DNA from: Methanospirillaceae archaeon
GTDB lineage: Archaea; Halobacteriota; Methanomicrobia; Methanomicrobiales; Methanospirillaceae
Length of the DNA stretch: 51,020 nt
Assembly: GCA_016926505.1 (NCBI GenBank)
Contig: JAFGOM010000085.1
Span: 1 to 51,020 of the forward strand
Reading direction: 5' to 3'
Part shown: in pieces, positions 41,010 through 50,067 of the stretch
Layout: every line of letters begins with the position of its first letter
Position numbering within the stretch: the stretch's first letter is position 1
Made by a program: the position numbers and the translations under genes
Notes under the pieces: model-generated
Seen by the model: the letters and a program-made list of their open reading frames with translations, nothing else
The model's database searches: none
Told to the model about the DNA's origin: nothing

Positions 41010-41591
41010 ATGTCCACACTCGATTATTTCGAGGTTGAGTCAACAGATAAGGTTGGTGCAGATCAGTATCGCAGGCTTGCTTCCGTTGTTATCGGGGATC
41101 ACGGCCTCCTGAAAGTGATCCAGAAGATCCATATCTATATCGATCCCGAGGTCCCGGTCTTTGTGGCAGTGGGAATTACCCGGACACTGCTCGCTGCGAT
41201 CCGGGTGAGTGATATTGGTGCTATCACAAACCAGGACGGGCAGGTCATTATCAGTATCAACGAGGAGACCTATCTTGCGGCTCTCTTACAGGTTCTCTGG
41301 AACCGGTTCTCAAAAGACATGGTACAACAGCCTGACCGGTTCACCATCATGATGGACCTGACGAATGAGGAGGCAGAAATTCTTCCTGACATGATTGTTA
41401 TCGATCCGACAGATACGCTTTACAAGGATCTCATCTACTCGATGCAGATCATCTGTCCGGAAGGGTTTAAAGTCAGAAAACAGAATTTTCTTGCAGGAAA
41501 GTTCTATTTTGTTGCGAGTGAGGATACCCTTCCCGAAGATATCATGCCACTGGTTCGGGAAAAGTTTGCCCTGATGGGGGAGACGATATGA
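41010..41591 (+). CDS. mmp17: Methanogenesis marker protein 17 (Mmp17)
   Basis: From the ATG at 41010 (site AGGAAGGAGC lies upstream) the protein has 193 residues and begins MSTLDYFEVESTDKVGADQY; an upstream extension to 40902 overlaps mmp15 and is rejected. It belongs to TIGR03291. Mmp17 is reported as part of the MCR activation complex. There are few cysteines and no standard enzyme motif. It is four bases after mmp15 and overlaps mmp7 by four, so the three must be expressed together. Confidence 0.92.
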   Translation: MSTLDYFEVESTDKVGADQYRRLASVVIGDHGLLKVIQKIHIYIDPEVPVFVAVGITRTLLAAIRVSDIGAITNQDGQVIISINEETYLAALLQVLWNRFSKDMVQQPDRFTIMMDLTNEEAEILPDMIVIDPTDTLYKDLIYSMQIICPEGFKVRKQNFLAGKFYFVASEDTLPEDIMPLVREKFALMGETI

Positions 41592-42526
41592 TTCTTGAGC
41601 CCGTCTCATACAAAGGGGGTGTGTACCGCCATGATGAGATCCTGGATCTCATCGAGGATCTTGGCGGATATATCATCCAGAAACATATCATTGCGCAGGA
41701 TGTCATTCTCCAGGCACTCATTCCAAAAACAGACATTGATCTGCTCAGAACCATAGCGAGACCCCTTGCCGGTGAGGTTACGACTGCCCCGCTTGTCGGG
41801 ACCGAGATAGCAGTTGTCTCCATGTCCCTTGAGATCCATCACCTTCCCCATGCATCGTGTGACGTCGCCGAGTACTTACGAACCGAGGGTGCCAAGACCA
41901 ACATGATAGGTCTTGCCCGTGGTTTTGGAAAACGAATCGCGCTCATGAATGAAGAGGAACGGGCAATTATCAATGAACACGATTGTGCAGTCTACCTTCT
42001 TGGAAATTTTGAGAGTTGCATCCAGAAAAAAATGCCGGTATTACGTCGTGGGATAACCGTGCCGATCCTCGTCTGTGGAGCGCCGGAAAGGGAGAAACTG
42101 ATGCAGATAATCGATCCCCCGGTTGACGGATATATCGGAGGTGTCGGACGATTTATGCACAGGACAAAGGAGGCAGGGGAGATCGCACGGCTTGATGATA
42201 TCGTCAGGGAAGTCGCGCAGGTATTGGATACAAAACGGGCAGCCATCGCCAAGGATCCGCTCTCAGTCTCACCGGCACGACTTATGGATGTTATCATATC
42301 AGAGATACCTGATATCAGGTACGTGACATCTCCGATTCCGGTTGTTGTTCAGATTGATGGTCTCCGGGTAAAGCTTCCCTTTGACCTTTATGCAGGTGAG
42401 ATTGGAGATATCCGGATTGAAGAAGGGATTCGTATCGCTTCTCTTGCTGCGATTACCCCTTCACGAATGAGAAATTACATCCTGATAAAGATAAAACCGT
42501 TTTCAGAGACCGGAATCAGAGTATAA
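41588..42526 (+). CDS. mmp7: Methanogenesis marker protein 7 (Mmp7)
   Basis: A 312-residue protein of TIGR03274, starting MILEPVSYKGGVYRHDEI. Mmp7 is a member of the MCR activation complex, reported to bind complex iron-sulfur clusters with its partners. Cysteines occur in ASCDVAEYL, EHDCAVYLL, ESCIQKKM and LVCGAPE; these could include ligands, but I cannot say which. The rest has alternating strands and helices with no membrane segment. This is the last gene of the operon, ending 63 bases before the PEGA gene. Confidence 0.93.
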   Translation: MILEPVSYKGGVYRHDEILDLIEDLGGYIIQKHIIAQDVILQALIPKTDIDLLRTIARPLAGEVTTAPLVGTEIAVVSMSLEIHHLPHASCDVAEYLRTEGAKTNMIGLARGFGKRIALMNEEERAIINEHDCAVYLLGNFESCIQKKMPVLRRGITVPILVCGAPEREKLMQIIDPPVDGYIGGVGRFMHRTKEAGEIARLDDIVREVAQVLDTKRAAIAKDPLSVSPARLMDVIISEIPDIRYVTSPIPVVVQIDGLRVKLPFDLYAGEIGDIRIEEGIRIASLAAITPSRMRNYILIKIKPFSETGIRV

Positions 42527-42589: not shown

Positions 42590-43573
42590 ATGAGAGCATG
42601 TAAAACGAAAAATATTTACCGATATTATGTTCTGCTCCTGTTTGTATGGATCTGCATCTATTGTACTCTCATTCCGGCACATGCCATTGTAGCCCCGGAA
42701 ATCCCTGATATTTCTTCAGAGATGAAAGGGGCAGCAGAGGGGTTTTATGAGATTATCAGTAATACCGACGGCACCAGGGTCTATTTTGATGCCGATTTTA
42801 AAGGTTTTATCTCCAATACCGGGCTCATTGTTCCGGTCTCACGCAACACAGATCCCTATACCACCATTACCCTGGAGAAGGAAGGATACCAGACGTTTCG
42901 TTCCCCCCTGCACAGCTATCCTGAACCGGGAAAGACCGTAACCATTCACGTTCCCATGACAAAAGAGCCGGCAGGAGGAGTTGGAACCGTATTAATTGAC
43001 GGAAATCCGGCTGGCACCATAGTTATCCGGGACAATGCCGGGATGGGCACCATTCCTGAATCAGGGATGATAATCCTTGCCAATATTCCATCAGGCATCC
43101 ATACTTTTACCTTTTCGTACCCCGGGTACGCAAACCAGACAATTGAGGAGTATCTCAACATCGGGGCATTGTTGCGACTCAGAATAGAGATGATACCTGA
43201 TGATACGGGAACCATATCTGTTTCTTCACAACCACAGGGAGCAGAGGTATACCTCGATGATGTCTATAAAGGGATAACCCCGATCGTGTTACCAGATATT
43301 CCTGCAGAAACCTACACGATTCTTTTAAGAAAGGACGGATATTCTGACCAGGTGAGTACCGTCTCAATAGAGGGAGGAAAGGAACAGGCAGTAGCAATCC
43401 CGTTATCTCCTCTCATGGTACCATCAGAGGAATTTTCCAGCCGGCAGAAGGGCAGTTCACCTGCAGAATTCCGCCAGTTTGCCGGTCTTCCACTTACCGG
43501 TATTGCCGCCATCGGAATCCTTATCCTTGCTCTGGGTATCCTTGGTATGTATGTGATAATGAAAAAGAAATGA
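42590..43573 (+). CDS. PEGA-repeat surface protein with C-terminal membrane anchor (copy 1)
   Basis: This 327-residue protein begins with a basic leader and a hydrophobic segment (about 10-32) that acts as a signal peptide. The body contains three PEGA-like beta-sandwich units: GTRVYFDADFKGFIS near residue 64, GTVLIDGNPAGTIVI near 132, and ISVSSQPQGAEVYLDDVYKG near 205 (in pieces). A low-complexity linker leads to a C-terminal transmembrane helix (about 303-324) and a KKK tail. It is thus probably anchored with its repeats outside. A TATA-like CATATTTTTA at 42557-42566 lies about 28 bases before the ATG and no ribosome site is seen, fitting a leaderless mRNA. It converges with a lipoprotein gene 26 bases away. 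Confidence 0.82.
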   Translation: MRACKTKNIYRYYVLLLFVWICIYCTLIPAHAIVAPEIPDISSEMKGAAEGFYEIISNTDGTRVYFDADFKGFISNTGLIVPVSRNTDPYTTITLEKEGYQTFRSPLHSYPEPGKTVTIHVPMTKEPAGGVGTVLIDGNPAGTIVIRDNAGMGTIPESGMIILANIPSGIHTFTFSYPGYANQTIEEYLNIGALLRLRIEMIPDDTGTISVSSQPQGAEVYLDDVYKGITPIVLPDIPAETYTILLRKDGYSDQVSTVSIEGGKEQAVAIPLSPLMVPSEEFSSRQKGSSPAEFRQFAGLPLTGIAAIGILILALGILGMYVIMKKK

Positions 43574-43599
43574 AAAAGAAGAGATAATCAAAAAACTGT

Positions 43600-44115
43600 T
43601 TATACCGGTCCAAATCCGATGAAATCGTCAGATATCTTGTAAGACTGACCGTTCTTGTACCAGACTGCAACCATAACTTCATCCTTGTGACTGGTTCCGA
43701 CAAAATCAACACTATTGCCCATCTCAGGCAGAAGTTTCTGTATCTCATCCCTTCCGTCAGACATGATAACACGAACCTCGATATCTGACACAAGACCCTG
43801 TCCGAATCCTCCATTAAAGGTCGCAGTGATCGTGTTAAAGATCTGATCCTTTGCCACGGTAATACTGACACTGATATCAGCAGGGGGTTGTGATACCGGC
43901 TCGTCCCAGATGGAGGGGGGAAGTACCTCAGGCGTTACTACTGGTTCTGCAGGCACTACTGCGGTCTCTACCGGGGGTGCGGCAGGTGTCGGGACAATGA
44001 TCTCTTCTGCAGGCTGTTCTGCAGGAGTGCTCTCAGGCCCGCTGCATCCTGCCAAAAGGACGAGAAACACAAGTGCCAGACCTGTGATACCAATACGGCA
44101 ATTTCTGTTCATCAT
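43600..44115 (-). CDS. Lipoprotein with one KDxIFxxIT-type domain (copy 1)
   Basis: The 171-residue protein starts with a signal peptide and a lipobox (LVFLVLLAGC; Cys24 approx.), then a Pro/Glu/Ala/Thr-rich linker (about 25-78). The mature domain (about 80-165) contains KDQIFNTITATFNGGFGQG, followed by VRVIMSDGR and KDEVMVAVWYKNGQSYKISDD. No known family is recognised by me. The same domain occurs twice in the minus-strand lipoprotein ending near 45504. It lies opposite, and 26 bases from, the PEGA gene. The role is unknown; a lipid-anchored surface protein acting with PEGA proteins is a positional inference. Confidence 0.75.
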   Translation of the reverse strand: MMNRNCRIGITGLALVFLVLLAGCSGPESTPAEQPAEEIIVPTPAAPPVETAVVPAEPVVTPEVLPPSIWDEPVSQPPADISVSITVAKDQIFNTITATFNGGFGQGLVSDIEVRVIMSDGRDEIQKLLPEMGNSVDFVGTSHKDEVMVAVWYKNGQSYKISDDFIGFGPV

Positions 44116-44473
44116 ACAAGATCAGATCATCAACTATTTGAATCATGATGCGAAAGTCAGATTCCACCCATGAACCAGACAAGAGGTTTTCCATGAATTG
44201 GAAAAAGTATCTATTATGTCTGTTTCACGTGAGAATCCGTACCGGTTCCGGTTATCAGGAGAGACTTTCAGATATCATCACCGGTTACTGTTGATTTATC
44301 GTATTGTCAGAAGAAAGCAGGTATTACCCCTGCAATATCCCCCTTGAGGAGCAAGATCACTTTAAATAGTCTGATCAAAAGAAGAGATGCTGCCGGGATA
44401 CTGATAACAGGAGATCCAAATAATGGACTTTTTATCCTTTCAGATAGAAATACAACCATCAGGAGAACGAAGT
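44116..44473. other. Intergenic region between a minus-strand lipoprotein and a PEGA gene
   Basis: These 358 bases hold the divergent promoters. For the PEGA gene on the right, TTTAAATA at 44361-44368 is a good TATA box, predicting a leader of about 80 bases. AGGAGAA at 44461-44467 is the ribosome site. For the lipoprotein on the left, AT-rich CTATTTGAAT at 44133-44142 may be its TATA box. I see no coding potential, tRNA or repeat otherwise. Confidence 0.45.
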
Positions 44474-45376
44474 ATGATGATAAAGAAAGTTCTAACTATT
44501 CTAGTCCTATTCTCAATTTTGCCAGTTTCCTTTGTCGCCGGACAGACTACAGAGATTATACCTGATACCGGGTATTACCTTATCCGATCCAATATTGACG
44601 GTGCTGAGGTTTATTTTGATAATGAGCTGATGGGAGTTATCGAGAGTAATAAACTGCTGATAGAAGTTCCCATTACCACAAAACCCTTGTATAGTACCTT
44701 CTCAGTCACTGCTTCCGGATACTCAACCTACAATGGGACCATTCTCCGGGTTCCCCTTCCGGGAGAAACGATTGATATGAGAGGGAACCTGAAACAAAAT
44801 CCAATTACGGGAACCGGAACTATATCTATCGGCTGTTCTCCCATAAACACTTCAGTCTATCTTGATTCAGTCTTTACGGGAACGATTGACTATTCCGGTA
44901 TCATGAGAATAAATGACGTGGCGCCCGGCCAGCATGTCCTGCTATTTGAGATGGACGGGTACGAAGGACAGGAGCAGTTTTTGTATGTTAACGCTAATAT
45001 GATAAATCAGATACTGGTAGAACTCATCCCGATTCCAAAAGGAAACCTGATTGTCACTTCTGTTCCATCCGGTGCATCGGTTATGATAGATGAAGTATAC
45101 CGGGGGATAACCCCTCTCACCCTGCCGGGGATGAATGTTGATAATTATGACCTTATCGTCAGCATGCCGGGATATCATGACTGGATTGGCTCAGTTTATG
45201 TCCCATATAACAGCACCGGCCAGATAGAAGCAGTGTTAGATCCGCTCCCGACTCCGACCACAAAGCCCACGACCCAGCCGACACCCATTCCCACAACCCC
45301 TTCGGCAGGGGTGCTCCCGGTAATTACATTATGTGCTCTTTGTCTGGTAAGCCTCATCTATTTACGCAGGATCTGA
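44474..45376 (+). CDS. PEGA-repeat surface protein with C-terminal membrane anchor (copy 2)
   Basis: This 300-residue protein from the ATG at 44474 (site GGAG eight bases upstream) starts with a signal peptide (MMIKKVLTILVLFSILPVSF). Three PEGA-like units follow: GAEVYFDNELMGVIE, then CSPINTSVYLDSVFTG, then SVPSGASVMIDEVYRGITPLTLP. A Thr/Pro-rich stalk (PTPTTKPTTQPTPIPTTP, residues about 257-282) precedes a C-terminal hydrophobic helix and an arginine tail, so it is anchored to the membrane. Sequons NGT and NTS are candidates for AglB glycosylation. The arrangement matches the upstream PEGA gene. It converges with a second lipoprotein at 128 bases. Confidence 0.82.
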   Translation: MMIKKVLTILVLFSILPVSFVAGQTTEIIPDTGYYLIRSNIDGAEVYFDNELMGVIESNKLLIEVPITTKPLYSTFSVTASGYSTYNGTILRVPLPGETIDMRGNLKQNPITGTGTISIGCSPINTSVYLDSVFTGTIDYSGIMRINDVAPGQHVLLFEMDGYEGQEQFLYVNANMINQILVELIPIPKGNLIVTSVPSGASVMIDEVYRGITPLTLPGMNVDNYDLIVSMPGYHDWIGSVYVPYNSTGQIEAVLDPLPTPTTKPTTQPTPIPTTPSAGVLPVITLCALCLVSLIYLRRI

Positions 45377-45503
45377 AATCCCCTCCTTTTTTAAAAGTGA
45401 ATAAACCATTCAGGCAGATTTGTTACCACAGGGAATTCATTTTTTGGATCAAAAAAATGGTCCGGAACAATGCTACCCGGCGATATTTCCAAAGCCTCGT
45501 TAT

Positions 45504-46415
45504 CTACCTTCGTCCTGATACCTGCTCATCAAATATCTTATACCGATCTCCGCTCTTGAATACGACTCCTACGACAACCCTGTCCGGACCCTTTGTTCCC
45601 TGGATCTCCGTGATAGCCCCGATACGACTATCCAGCTCCTCACTGACCATAGTACCGTCAGAGAGCACTGCATGAACCGGGATCGTCCCGATGATTCCCT
45701 GTCCGTGACCTCCAAGAAAGGTAATGGTGATGACGTTGAATATGGGATCTTTCCGAACATCAATGAGAACTGAGAGATTATCAGGAGGGAGGGTAACCGG
45801 ACCGTCAGGGATCAGGAGAGGTGAGGGGGTTTGTATGGTTTCCTGGATCTCCGGGGTTACTGTTATTATCGGAGTTATCTGACCGATTCGCGAACCAGAC
45901 AGGGTTTCATCATATATCTTATACACATCCCCGCTCAGGTATGATACGAGTACTGCAACACGATCATTACCTGCGGTTCCCTGGAAGAGAACCTCATCGC
46001 CAACCCTGTTCGTGAGATCTTTTGATGTTATCTCCCCATCCGGGGTGATAGTCCTGACTTCAACAGCCTTGACCAGTTTCTGACCTTTGCCCCCGGTAAA
46101 TGTGGCAGTGATAATCTTGTATATCGGATCCTTTACCACATCCACCGATACCTGCAGGTTTTTATGCGGTAGCGAGACCGGACCCGGGTAGGGATCGGTC
46201 AGGGGCAACGGGGTAACCGGGAGGGTGGGTTTCATTACTGACTCCGGTGTCTGCGATTCGGAAGAGAGGGGCAGATCCCGGGCAGGAGAGACAACGGGTG
46301 ATACCGTGGGAGACGGTGCCTGTTTTACGTCGGGAGAAGATTCCTGTGTACAGCCCGCAAAGATACAGGCAAGTAACAGAATTGTCCCGAAACGAAGAAT
46401 AAGAGTGCAATTCAT
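45504..46415 (-). CDS. Lipoprotein with two tandem KDPIxxxIT-type domains (copy 2)
   Basis: The 303-residue protein has a signal peptide and lipobox (LLLACIFAGC), then a low-complexity Pro/Ser/Thr linker (about 24-80). Two domains follow: the first with KDPIYKIITATFTGGKGQ, the second with KDPIFNVITITFLGGHGQG. Each is followed by DRVAVLVSYLSGDVYKIYDE or DRVVVGVVFKSGDRYKIFDE. Together they show an internal duplication of the single domain found in the lipoprotein at 43600-44115. No family name is known to me. Secreted and lipid-anchored, function unknown. A TATA-like sequence lies on the minus strand near 46432-46443. Confidence 0.77.
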   Translation of the reverse strand: MNCTLILRFGTILLLACIFAGCTQESSPDVKQAPSPTVSPVVSPARDLPLSSESQTPESVMKPTLPVTPLPLTDPYPGPVSLPHKNLQVSVDVVKDPIYKIITATFTGGKGQKLVKAVEVRTITPDGEITSKDLTNRVGDEVLFQGTAGNDRVAVLVSYLSGDVYKIYDETLSGSRIGQITPIITVTPEIQETIQTPSPLLIPDGPVTLPPDNLSVLIDVRKDPIFNVITITFLGGHGQGIIGTIPVHAVLSDGTMVSEELDSRIGAITEIQGTKGPDRVVVGVVFKSGDRYKIFDEQVSGRR

Positions 46416-46713: not shown

Positions 46714-47217
46714 GTGAGGGTGAAAAACGGATTTGAGACGATATTAGACCGTATTGCACAAAACGGTATTGAAGAGACTGCAGACGAATGGATGGAAGCG
46801 ATAAAGGAAGACTATGGCAGAGTCCCCCTGATTTTCGAGCGGATGCGTCCGCGTCCGGATGTCCTCATCTCACATCTTCTCTATAAGAATTCTGTTGTAA
46901 AGACAAGCACACTTGAGCCAAAATATGTTGAACTGATATGCCTTGCTGTCGGTGCGGCTCTTAAATGCAACCATTGTACCGAATACCATATGCAGGCAGC
47001 GTTGCGGATGGGAGCCACAAAGGAAGAAGTGATGGAAGCGATACTCATTGCAGGACTGACTGCTCAGTCCTCTGTGCTTGCAGATGCATACAGGACGTAC
47101 GATGATAAGATCGATGAATGTATGGCATGCGGGGACGAAGTAGGGGATATCATACACCAAAAAGAGAAGACCTGTGCCCGTTTCACCCCTGACTGCGGGA
47201 TGAAACGAGCAGATTAA
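46714..47217 (+). CDS. AhpD/carboxymuconolactone decarboxylase-like protein
   Basis: The 167-residue protein contains the AhpD-like helical core. The redox-active Cys-x2-Cys motif is CNHCTEYHMQAALRMGAT near residue 89, followed by EEVMEAILIAGLTAQSSVL. Members act as alkylhydroperoxidase partners or decarboxylases; the CxxC suggests disulfide or peroxide chemistry. Additional cysteines at the C-terminus (ECMACGDE and KTCARFTPDCGMK) are unusual. The start is GTG at 46714, or GTG at 46720. It may be controlled by the dyad upstream. Confidence 0.85.
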   Translation: MRVKNGFETILDRIAQNGIEETADEWMEAIKEDYGRVPLIFERMRPRPDVLISHLLYKNSVVKTSTLEPKYVELICLAVGAALKCNHCTEYHMQAALRMGATKEEVMEAILIAGLTAQSSVLADAYRTYDDKIDECMACGDEVGDIIHQKEKTCARFTPDCGMKRAD

Positions 47218-47225
47218 CCAGACAT

Positions 47226-49073
47226 TCACCTTTTTTTCTTTTTTCTTTTCTGCCGTCCTTCTTGGTACTGATATGATGACCGACTTTTCGGCACCAGGCA
47301 CTGCCATTCCTCACCGATGAGATCATTTCGGTTGAGAGAGTGGAGTGCTTCCCTGACCAGATCCGTATTTTTTGGATCCCGATAAAGAAGCAACGCCCGC
47401 TGTAACACCTTCTCTCTTCCCATGGGAACATGAACCACTTGTCCGGTGAATGGATTCAGTCCGGTATAATACATGCAGGTTGATCCGGTCATGGGTGTCG
47501 GAGTAAAATCCTGTACCTGCTCGCTGAATAAGCCCTGTTTCCGGATACAAAGGGCGAGTTCCAGCATATCTGACAGGGTACAGCCGGGATGCCCTGACAT
47601 GAAATAGGGGAGCACATACTGGCGGGATGATCGGTTCTTCTGGACCTCTTCAAAGTTCTTTAAAAAAACCTCCAGCGGTCTCTCTCCTATTTTGTTCATC
47701 AGAGAGAGTACATGGGGACTTGTATGCTCCGGTGCTATCTTGAGGTGTCCTGACACGTACCGGCAGATTTTCCTGACAATTTCCGGTTCGTCAGGGATGA
47801 GGTCATACCGTATCCCTGACCCGATAAAGACATGCTTCACCCCGGGTATTTTTGATGCTTCTTCTAAAAGAGAGAGATAGGTATTGATACCCGCATTCAG
47901 AGACGCGCATGAGATGCAGGAACGATCGACGCAGGTTCCCTTTGTTTCCCAGGCAGGGCAGGTGCTGGCAAACATGGTAGCGGTTGGTCCACCGATATCT
48001 GAAATAGTCCCGGTAAATCCGGGCTTTGATGCGATTCTTCTGACCTCACGAAGAATGGATTCCTCACTCCTGCTCTGTATGATCCGGCCCTGGTGATGGG
48101 TGAGTGAGCAGAAAGAACAGGAACCAAAACATCCCCGGTGTGATGTAACCGAGAAACGAACCGGTTCGAGTGCCGGGATCTTTTCCTGGTACGACGGATG
48201 TTCCTGCCTTGCATAGGGGAGCTCGTACGTTGCGTCAAGCTCACGCTGGTTCATCGGGGGTGCCGGGGGATTCTGTATGATAACGGTCTTTGGATGCGGT
48301 TGGATGAGTTTTTTTCCCCGGATCGGATCCTGCTCCTGCAGAATCGCCAGGTATGCCGTGGCAAACGCTCTTTTGTCAGTCTTCACTTCAAAGAAGGAAG
48401 GAAGAATTACCGAATCAGAAAAAGGGTCATCCCGGTATTCCCTTATACTCCTTTTTATTACGGTTCCTGCGAGAGTGTGAAGACTCCCTGCCGGTATCTC
48501 CCGGGCCAGATTATCTGCGATGCCCGTAAGCTGTTGTTCACCCATGCCAAACACCAGAATATCGGCAGGTGCATCAGAGAGGATTGAACCCCTTACCTGG
48601 TCAGACCAGTAATCATAGTGTGCAAACCGCCTGAGACTTGCCTCCACTCCTCCGATCACAACCGGTGTTTCCGGGAATAACCGGTGAAGAATATCAGTGT
48701 AAACAAGCGTCGCCCGGTCCGGACGAAGTCCGGGTCTGCCACCCGGACTGTACAGGTCCCTGGATCGTCTCTTCTTTGCAGCAGTGTAATGGGAGACCAT
48801 TGAGTCAAGGTTTCCTGCAGATACCGAAAAAAAGAGGTTTGGTTCACCTAACCGGGTGAAATCGGCCGGATCTCTCCAGTCTGGCTGTGCAATCACTCCT
48901 ACCGTATAGCCGGCTTCCCACAGGAACCGTCCCAAAAGTGCGGTTGCAAATGAGGGGTGGTCAACATAGGCATCGCCCGAGAGGAGGATGATATCAAACG
49001 ATTCTATTCCCAGTCTCTCCTGCTCAGTCCTTGTCATGGGCAGGAATTCAGGCTGGGAGTTATTACGAGACAT
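47226..49073 (-). CDS. YgiQ-family radical SAM protein
   Basis: The 615-residue protein begins at the ATG at 49073 (MSRNNSQPEFLPMTRTEQE); an upstream reading to 49202 overlaps the next gene and is rejected. The radical SAM motif is C-x3-C-x2-C at Cys315, Cys319 and Cys322 (CFGSCSFC). N-terminal features (YVDHPSFATALLGR, VVIGGVEASLRRFAHYDYW) and QDFTPTPMTGSTCMYYTGLNP are typical of YgiQ/UPF0313. The tail ends in a lysine/arginine run. The reaction catalysed is unknown. It converges with the AhpD-like gene at eight bases. Confidence 0.93.
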   Translation of the reverse strand: MSRNNSQPEFLPMTRTEQERLGIESFDIILLSGDAYVDHPSFATALLGRFLWEAGYTVGVIAQPDWRDPADFTRLGEPNLFFSVSAGNLDSMVSHYTAAKKRRSRDLYSPGGRPGLRPDRATLVYTDILHRLFPETPVVIGGVEASLRRFAHYDYWSDQVRGSILSDAPADILVFGMGEQQLTGIADNLAREIPAGSLHTLAGTVIKRSIREYRDDPFSDSVILPSFFEVKTDKRAFATAYLAILQEQDPIRGKKLIQPHPKTVIIQNPPAPPMNQRELDATYELPYARQEHPSYQEKIPALEPVRFSVTSHRGCFGSCSFCSLTHHQGRIIQSRSEESILREVRRIASKPGFTGTISDIGGPTATMFASTCPAWETKGTCVDRSCISCASLNAGINTYLSLLEEASKIPGVKHVFIGSGIRYDLIPDEPEIVRKICRYVSGHLKIAPEHTSPHVLSLMNKIGERPLEVFLKNFEEVQKNRSSRQYVLPYFMSGHPGCTLSDMLELALCIRKQGLFSEQVQDFTPTPMTGSTCMYYTGLNPFTGQVVHVPMGREKVLQRALLLYRDPKNTDLVREALHSLNRNDLIGEEWQCLVPKSRSSYQYQEGRQKRKKKKR

Positions 49074-49110
49074 AGAGAGAAATGTATACAGGAGGGAACC
49101 TTTGAATAAT

Positions 49111-50067
49111 TCAGGCGAGGAGAATACTCCCGACGATCCGTAACTTCTCACTCTCAAGATACACGAGAACTGCCGAATCCCCCGGCCGGTACATGAGCTC
49201 ATGATCAGAAGAGAGCGTTATGCTCTTTTCCCGTGGATTTTCACCAGGTATGCAGCCGGTGACACGGAAGGGAAGGAACTGCATCCAATGGCCGACATAA
49301 AGCACCATCTGCTCTCGGATGGGTTCTTTCCAGTACGGGATGAGAGTCAGACTGCCGGTGATGGTCGTGGTCTGGACAACAGCATGCTCAGGTGCAAGCA
49401 CGTATCCCCGATCCAGCATCTCTGCATCGATCCCCTTTAGTGCCAGCCCGACCCGGTCGCCGGTAACCGCGTCCTGTGCATCATCATCATGTTTCTGAAT
49501 GGATCGGACGGTTGCAGTTATGGTTGTCGGATAGACTCTGACCTGATCATGCTTGTGAATTGTCCCTGCAATAACCGAACCGAGTATGACGGTTCCAATC
49601 CCTTTTACATTAAAATGATGATCAACAGGGATGATCCCCTTCCCTTCCTCCGGCGACTTCCTTTCTTCTGCCTCGTGTAAGAGACGTTCCCGAAGCAGGT
49701 TCGTATCATCAGAAACGATTTCGTACCCTTCAAGAACGGTCCCCTTTATCAGGGGTGCAATCTGTTCTTTGTCAAGGTAATTTCTCAGAATCAGGTATCC
49801 CTGGTCTATACCTGCACAGTCAAGCATGAGAATACACTCGCCAAGAACTGCAGTTATCTCTTCTATGACCAGCACGGCTACATCCCCGAGTGATACTGCA
49901 AAGAAGAGTGATGAGAACTTTTCAGGATATCGGGACGGTTCGATAAGGGTGAGTGTTGTCTCTCCTTTTTTGTGGTTATAAAACGCGATATCGGTGTTGG
50001 TTCCGATCTTCCCGATATCTTTTGAGAAACCGGGGGGACCGAGAACGACAACATTGAGGTTTGTCAT
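49111..50067 (-). CDS. SelB-like translation factor relative with a degenerate GTPase domain (aSelBL-type)
   Basis: The protein has 318 residues from the ATG at 50067; a GTG at 50076 would add three. Domain 2/3 features are EF-Tu-like: GIIPVDHHFNVKGIGTVILG, then HKHDQVRVYPTT and the beta-barrel segments to the end. The N-terminal domain lies where a GTPase should be, but GPPGFSKDIGKIGTNTD stands where G-x4-GK[ST] is expected and no NKxD is found. This matches archaeal SelB-like proteins that have lost GTPase residues. It probably binds RNA or a protein without GTP hydrolysis. No selenocysteine genes are seen here. Confidence 0.8.
   Translation of the reverse strand: MTNLNVVVLGPPGFSKDIGKIGTNTDIAFYNHKKGETTLTLIEPSRYPEKFSSLFFAVSLGDVAVLVIEEITAVLGECILMLDCAGIDQGYLILRNYLDKEQIAPLIKGTVLEGYEIVSDDTNLLRERLLHEAEERKSPEEGKGIIPVDHHFNVKGIGTVILGSVIAGTIHKHDQVRVYPTTITATVRSIQKHDDDAQDAVTGDRVGLALKGIDAEMLDRGYVLAPEHAVVQTTTITGSLTLIPYWKEPIREQMVLYVGHWMQFLPFRVTGCIPGENPREKSITLSSDHELMYRPGDSAVLVYLESEKLRIVGSILLA

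Follow-up and report, generated by a model that had tools for sequence, protein, structure and literature searches.

What are four genes, in which PEGA-domain and lipoprotein genes alternate on opposite strands, doing for the archaeon that carries them? The question arises at positions 42,590 to 46,415 of the window, by which we mean the whole stretch of 51,020 nucleotides analyzed here from a Methanospirillaceae archaeon (contig JAFGOM010000085.1). A preliminary description of this DNA saw in the locus an undescribed two-protein cell-surface system that had arisen by the ancient duplication of a convergent gene pair.

Organization of the locus

All four open reading frames were found where the preliminary description had placed them, in the order PEGA(+), lipoprotein(-), PEGA(+), lipoprotein(-) across 42590-46415, and this four-gene pattern is far beyond chance. 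To the left of PEGA1 lie the genes for methanogenesis markers 5, 15, 17, and 7, and to the right of Lip2 lie an AhpD-like gene and a gene for a YgiQ-family radical SAM protein. A comparison of synteny revealed that the mmp7/AhpD/YgiQ frame is kept across the family. The genes and domains are as follows.

41588..42526, + strand: methanogenesis marker 7 (mmp7, McrC-like); conserved left edge of the variable slot (TIGR03274, E = 7.1e-132; synteny)
42590..43573, + strand: PEGA1, 327 aa; predicted signal peptide, three PEGA-like units, and predicted C-terminal transmembrane helix with a Lys tail (PF08308, E = 1.3e-21; three domains by HMM; tail sequence)
43600..44115, - strand: Lip1, 171 aa; predicted lipoprotein, lipobox LAGC, with a single copy of an unnamed beta-sandwich domain (matches to Lip2; lipobox pattern)
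43606..43896, - strand: domain copy of Lip1 (profile match 5.0e-48, the profile including the Lip1 copy itself)
44423..45376, + strand: PEGA2, 317 aa as the longest open reading frame; three PEGA-like units, Thr/Pro-rich linker, and predicted C-terminal membrane helix (PF08308, E = 1.7e-24; AlphaFold2 model)
45504..46415, - strand: Lip2, 303 aa; predicted lipoprotein, lipobox FAGC, with two tandem domain copies; positional orthologue of the Methanospirillum tandem lipoprotein
45876..46178, - strand: domain copy 1 of Lip2 (three-copy alignment; profile match)
45507..45797, - strand: domain copy 2 of Lip2 (profile match; the copy modeled by AlphaFold2, pLDDT 95.7)
46714..47217, + strand: AhpD/carboxymuconolactone decarboxylase-like gene; conserved right-hand neighbor (PF02627, E = 1.2e-16; synteny)
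47226..49202, - strand: YgiQ-family radical SAM protein; conserved right edge (TIGR03904, E = 5.2e-231; synteny)

Convergent genes do not make up an operon, and the arrangement therefore does not imply coexpression. Terminator and promoter scans of the locus, which are ill-suited to archaea, gave results near chance.

PEGA1 and PEGA2

Both PEGA proteins match PF08308 well above its curated Pfam cutoff of 20.8, with bit scores of 76.7 for PEGA1 and 85.9 for PEGA2, and they are paralogous, sharing 34% identity over 211 aa (E = 9e-41). Three PEGA-like units had been claimed for each, and the HMM counts agree, the N-terminal unit being divergent; for PEGA2, the AlphaFold2 model (mean pLDDT 84.4) gives the same number. 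This model consists of a signal helix, three beta units whose packing is of low confidence (pTM 0.42), and a C-terminal helix at residues 281-299, and in structure comparison it most closely resembles multi-domain surface proteins and pilins. Going by the signal peptide, PEGA2 probably starts at 44474 rather than at 44423. The claim that the two proteins share a C-terminal anchor needs to be narrowed: an anchor helix is predicted in both, but the anchor sequences are not alike, that of PEGA1 being GLPLTGIAAIGILILALGILGMYVIMKKK, whereas PEGA2 has a Thr/Pro-rich linker followed by SAGVLPVITLCALCLVSLIYLRRI. Neither tail scores above the cutoff for a known C-terminal sorting signal.

Lip1 and Lip2

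By pattern, Lip1 and Lip2 each have a signal peptide and a lipobox Cys, which makes them predicted lipoproteins. Sequence comparison revealed that Lip1 matches both halves of Lip2, so that the lipoproteins are paralogous, and an alignment of the three domain copies (one from Lip1 and two from Lip2) contains 30 invariant columns. These results establish the domain that the preliminary description had read as single in Lip1 and tandem in Lip2. The domain is characterized by the motif KDPIYxxITxTFxGGxGQ and by YKI close to the C terminus. Across the domain family, the only invariant columns are G, G, G, and Y, residues that look structural.

The AlphaFold2 model of the second copy of Lip2 is a seven-strand beta-sandwich, nearly all beta. 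A Foldseek search with the model placed fn3/Ig-like folds nearest among solved structures, with a TM-score of about 0.6 and a best E-value of 8e-3, and returned zero matches at E 0.001 or better. As modeled, the domain thus clearly belongs to the fn3/Ig-like fold class, without a close structural relative.

A known-domain identity for the lipoproteins was considered and rejected, since searches of Pfam, NCBIfam, PHROGs, and PDB sequences yielded nothing credible. None of the 56 members searched had a credible Pfam match; the weak matches reached a best E-value of 6e-4, to a phage adaptor family, in 12 of the 56, and a PDB sequence search with the domain gave no match. Pfam, NCBIfam, and PHROGs likewise gave no catalytic family for any of the four proteins.

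The slot between mmp7 and YgiQ

Among the loci read, PEGA and lipoprotein genes share the mmp7-AhpD/YgiQ slot only in the window genome and in Methanospirillum, as a named scan identified the loci of genus g13 (M. stamsii, M. hungatei, and other relatives). A PEGA gene is directly convergent with a tandem lipoprotein gene in all nine assessable Methanospirillum loci, the stop codons of the facing pair lying 0-26 bases apart; a tenth locus, cut by a contig end, was left out. In the 37 loci of 11 other genera that span mmp7 and AhpD, the slot holds neither a PEGA gene nor a domain gene, and many of these loci carry different exported proteins and lipoproteins in its place. Loci L086-L125, read from mmp7 to YgiQ, show that throughout the family this site varies in the exported proteins it encodes, and several genera have a META-domain protein and an unrelated lipoprotein there.

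Where Methanospirillum has PEGA genes in tandem, a distal and a proximal one, no lipoprotein-family gene lies between them (7/7 loci). At L048:6462-7939, L047:10279-11792, L050, and L051, the distal PEGA protein lacks a membrane helix at its end, and its gene is immediately followed by one for a two-unit PEGA protein.

Distribution of the lipoprotein domain

A first scan of the genome collection with the three-copy alignment returned no relative; the relatives described here came from whole-genome searches. The domain is near-universal in the order Methanomicrobiales and rare outside it, being present in all 108 genomes of the family and in 183 of the 199 genomes sampled from the order, to which 25 of the 27 genomes with a match in a phylum sample also belong. 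The domain is a widespread family without a name.

It occurs in single-domain lipoproteins (the commonest form among the loci fetched), in tandem lipoproteins, in tandem proteins without a clear lipobox, and at the C terminus of zinc-ribbon proteins. The last are longer proteins of L072, L073, L078, and L079, several of which have zinc ribbons at the N terminus; this layout suggests a membrane protein whose ribbon lies in the cytoplasm and whose sandwich lies outside. The form without a clear lipobox (G000:C56:53064-53705 in L045; also L075 and L076) has the same neighbors in the window genome and in Methanospirillum. A single-domain relative (G000:C105:48654-48938 in L012 and L044; also L059-L071, L074, and L082) sits in a neighborhood conserved in many genomes, whose genes, named by sequence reading, encode an apparent proteasome-activating nucleotidase, a radical SAM protein, and a metallophosphoesterase; the window genome has part of it. 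As this neighborhood is stable and of a housekeeping kind, it offers no functional clue.

The preliminary description had asked whether the domain always neighbors PEGA genes; it does not, an outcome that the description itself had counted as a refutation. Although the domain is found throughout the order, a PEGA gene lies within the fetched stretch in only 3 of the 32 domain loci outside the slot (facing in L073; also L079 and L085). PEGA genes are so common in these genomes (each of 13 near-complete ones has 6-63 domain matches with an E-value of 1e-8 or below) that a few chance neighbors are to be expected on an informal reckoning. In a third genus, g8, for which both contigs are short, a tandem lipoprotein gene lies beside tetrapyrrole-type genes with no PEGA gene there. 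By these counts, the domain is thus not part of an obligate PEGA system, and the two-protein interpretation is supported only in part, by the paralogies and by the convergent pair conserved in the Methanospirillum slot.

Origin of the four genes

In the account given by the preliminary description, a dedicated two-protein system, the PEGA stalk binding the lipoprotein that faces it, would have been duplicated once as a whole to give two systems. The paralogy of the PEGA proteins and of the lipoproteins accords with this account, as does the facing pair kept in every assessable Methanospirillum locus, and the sister groupings it calls for were not rejected, either for PEGA1 and PEGA2 (AU p = 0.10) or for Lip1 and Lip2 (p = 0.15-0.22). 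However, the scarcity of PEGA genes near the domain outside the slot and the tandem lipoprotein of g8 speak against such a dedicated system. In addition, because no lipoprotein gene separates the PEGA genes of Methanospirillum, the account also requires a loss there. We consider it rather unlikely, and a physical partnership of each PEGA protein with its facing lipoprotein, though plausible, is speculative. A recent segmental duplication was rejected, as the two pairs have between them just short, chance-like DNA repeats, the longest of 22 bases at 77%.

Alternatively, the genes may have had separate histories in one slot, the PEGA tandem duplication preceding the split of the window genus from Methanospirillum, Lip2 being the old facing gene, and Lip1 a later arrival or half of an old tandem lipoprotein. 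PEGA1 and PEGA2 occupy the positions of the distal and proximal PEGA genes of Methanospirillum, flanked by the same genes. Likewise, the best PEGA tree joins PEGA2 to the proximal Methanospirillum clade (92/91) and PEGA1 to the distal one (72/48), and the domain tree joins the Lip1 domain to domain 1 of the tandem lipoproteins (95/92), with both Lip2 domains on the domain 2 side. The trees, however, are weak because branches are long and the domains span about 100 columns, and diagnostic columns fail to separate PEGA1 (six proximal and three distal) from PEGA2 (six proximal and four distal). We give separate histories about an even chance, and they are compatible with the explanation of function offered below. 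Of the ancient pair duplication, then, the paralogies hold, while a single event is neither shown nor excluded by the trees and the seven Methanospirillum loci.

Relation to the sheath

A role in the tubular sheath or the end plugs that typify Methanospirillum was also weighed. The sheath protein of Methanospirillum is given as 40.6 kDa in PMC6242892, and it has been reported as present in Methanospirillum and Methanolinea and absent in Methanoregula (PMC11576556). Our query, L138:1900-3033, is a presumed sheath protein, chosen because it fits this description in size and signal peptide. Homologues were detected in 51 of the 108 genomes searched and in 13 of 17 genera, the window genus included, with none in genera g7 and g11, a pattern that agrees with the published one if g11 is Methanoregula (PMC11576556). 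The window genome has six matches, on G000:C62, C76, and C16, and by this sequence criterion, the window organism may be sheathed. In G073, which we take to be M. hungatei JF-1, about 21 kb separate the locus from the presumed sheath-protein gene. While these matches and this proximity favor a connection with the sheath, the slot genes are confined to two genera, and at least eight of the 13 genera with sheath homologues have a slot without PEGA or domain gene. Since sheath genes are found in many genera without the pair, a sheath-specific role is not supported, and we regard it as very improbable.

Proposed function

The four genes probably encode non-enzymatic envelope proteins, likely to be membrane-anchored spacers or adhesive struts. 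We infer the surface location from the predicted signal peptides, lipoboxes, and C-terminal helices, and the PEGA assignments (E-values on the order of 1e-21 or better) are consistent with it. A structural or adhesive role is suggested by the confidently modeled fn3/Ig-like domain with its few invariant residues, the likeness of the PEGA2 model to surface proteins and pilins, and the lack of a catalytic family match; the facing order in Methanospirillum and the other exported proteins that often fill the slot elsewhere point the same way. On the other hand, beta-sandwich lipoproteins can also bind ligands or sense, and the same domain ends zinc-ribbon proteins in other genera.

On this proposal, PEGA1 and PEGA2 would be stalks of three small beta-domains, exported by their signal peptides and held by a C-terminal membrane helix, and Lip1 and Lip2 would carry one or two Ig/fn3-like beta-sandwiches on a disordered Pro/Thr/Ser-rich tether. 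All four would most likely act as spacers or adhesive struts in the gap that separates the membrane from the S-layer or sheath. Their genes would have entered, or grown within, the mmp7-AhpD/YgiQ slot in the common ancestor of the window genus and Methanospirillum, with duplications later raising their number. A bolder version, which we think has little chance of being right, makes the PEGA stalk and the tethered tandem beta-sandwich lipoprotein a coadapted pair of spacers that only Methanospirillum and its sister genus have. Such a pair would set the distance from membrane to S-layer or from S-layer to sheath, and it would be doubled here, perhaps by the splitting of a tandem lipoprotein into Lip1 and a reduplicated Lip2.

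The cluster is a set of ordinary lineage-specific surface genes that includes one domain family without a name, rather than a system of a new kind. As the domain is found in almost every sampled Methanomicrobiales genome, naming it would annotate several surface proteins in each. Furthermore, when archaeal sheaths were recently surveyed, no additional proteins could be tied to the formation of sheaths and plugs (PMC11576556), which makes lineage-specific envelope genes of Methanospirillum useful candidates, with the caveat that the distribution of the PEGA/lipoprotein pair among genera differs from that of sheath genes. The cluster is thus a modest lead on envelope building in sheathed methanogens. 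The main texts of two Methanospirillum envelope and sheath studies (PMC11641113 and PMC6242892) make no mention of PEGA or of lipoproteins.

Comparison with known systems

The modeled lipoprotein domain shares the seven-strand beta-sandwich of fibronectin type III and Ig-like domains but differs from those families in having its own motif and no sequence match to them. The S-layer protein of M. hungatei, as presented in PMC11641113, is likewise a surface protein of Ig-like domains, six in number, from the same archaeal group; however, it is a DUF3821 protein with a PGF-CTERM anchor, and the window proteins match neither. A close counterpart is the Methanospirillum cluster (M. stamsii L128/L047, M. 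hungatei L126, and others), which has the same slot, facing order, and tandem lipoprotein architecture, its tandem lipoproteins being 39-47% identical to that of the window. Unlike in the window, its PEGA genes are not separated by a lipoprotein gene; they number three in some species, and the distal one is sometimes anchorless. Finally, PEGA1 and PEGA2 resemble the PEGA-domain surface proteins of archaea and bacteria (PF08308; PMC2447325) in their repeated units and in their predicted export signal and anchor. Compared with other PF08308 proteins, they show nothing unusual, and the features peculiar to this lineage are limited to the facing lipoprotein and the slot.
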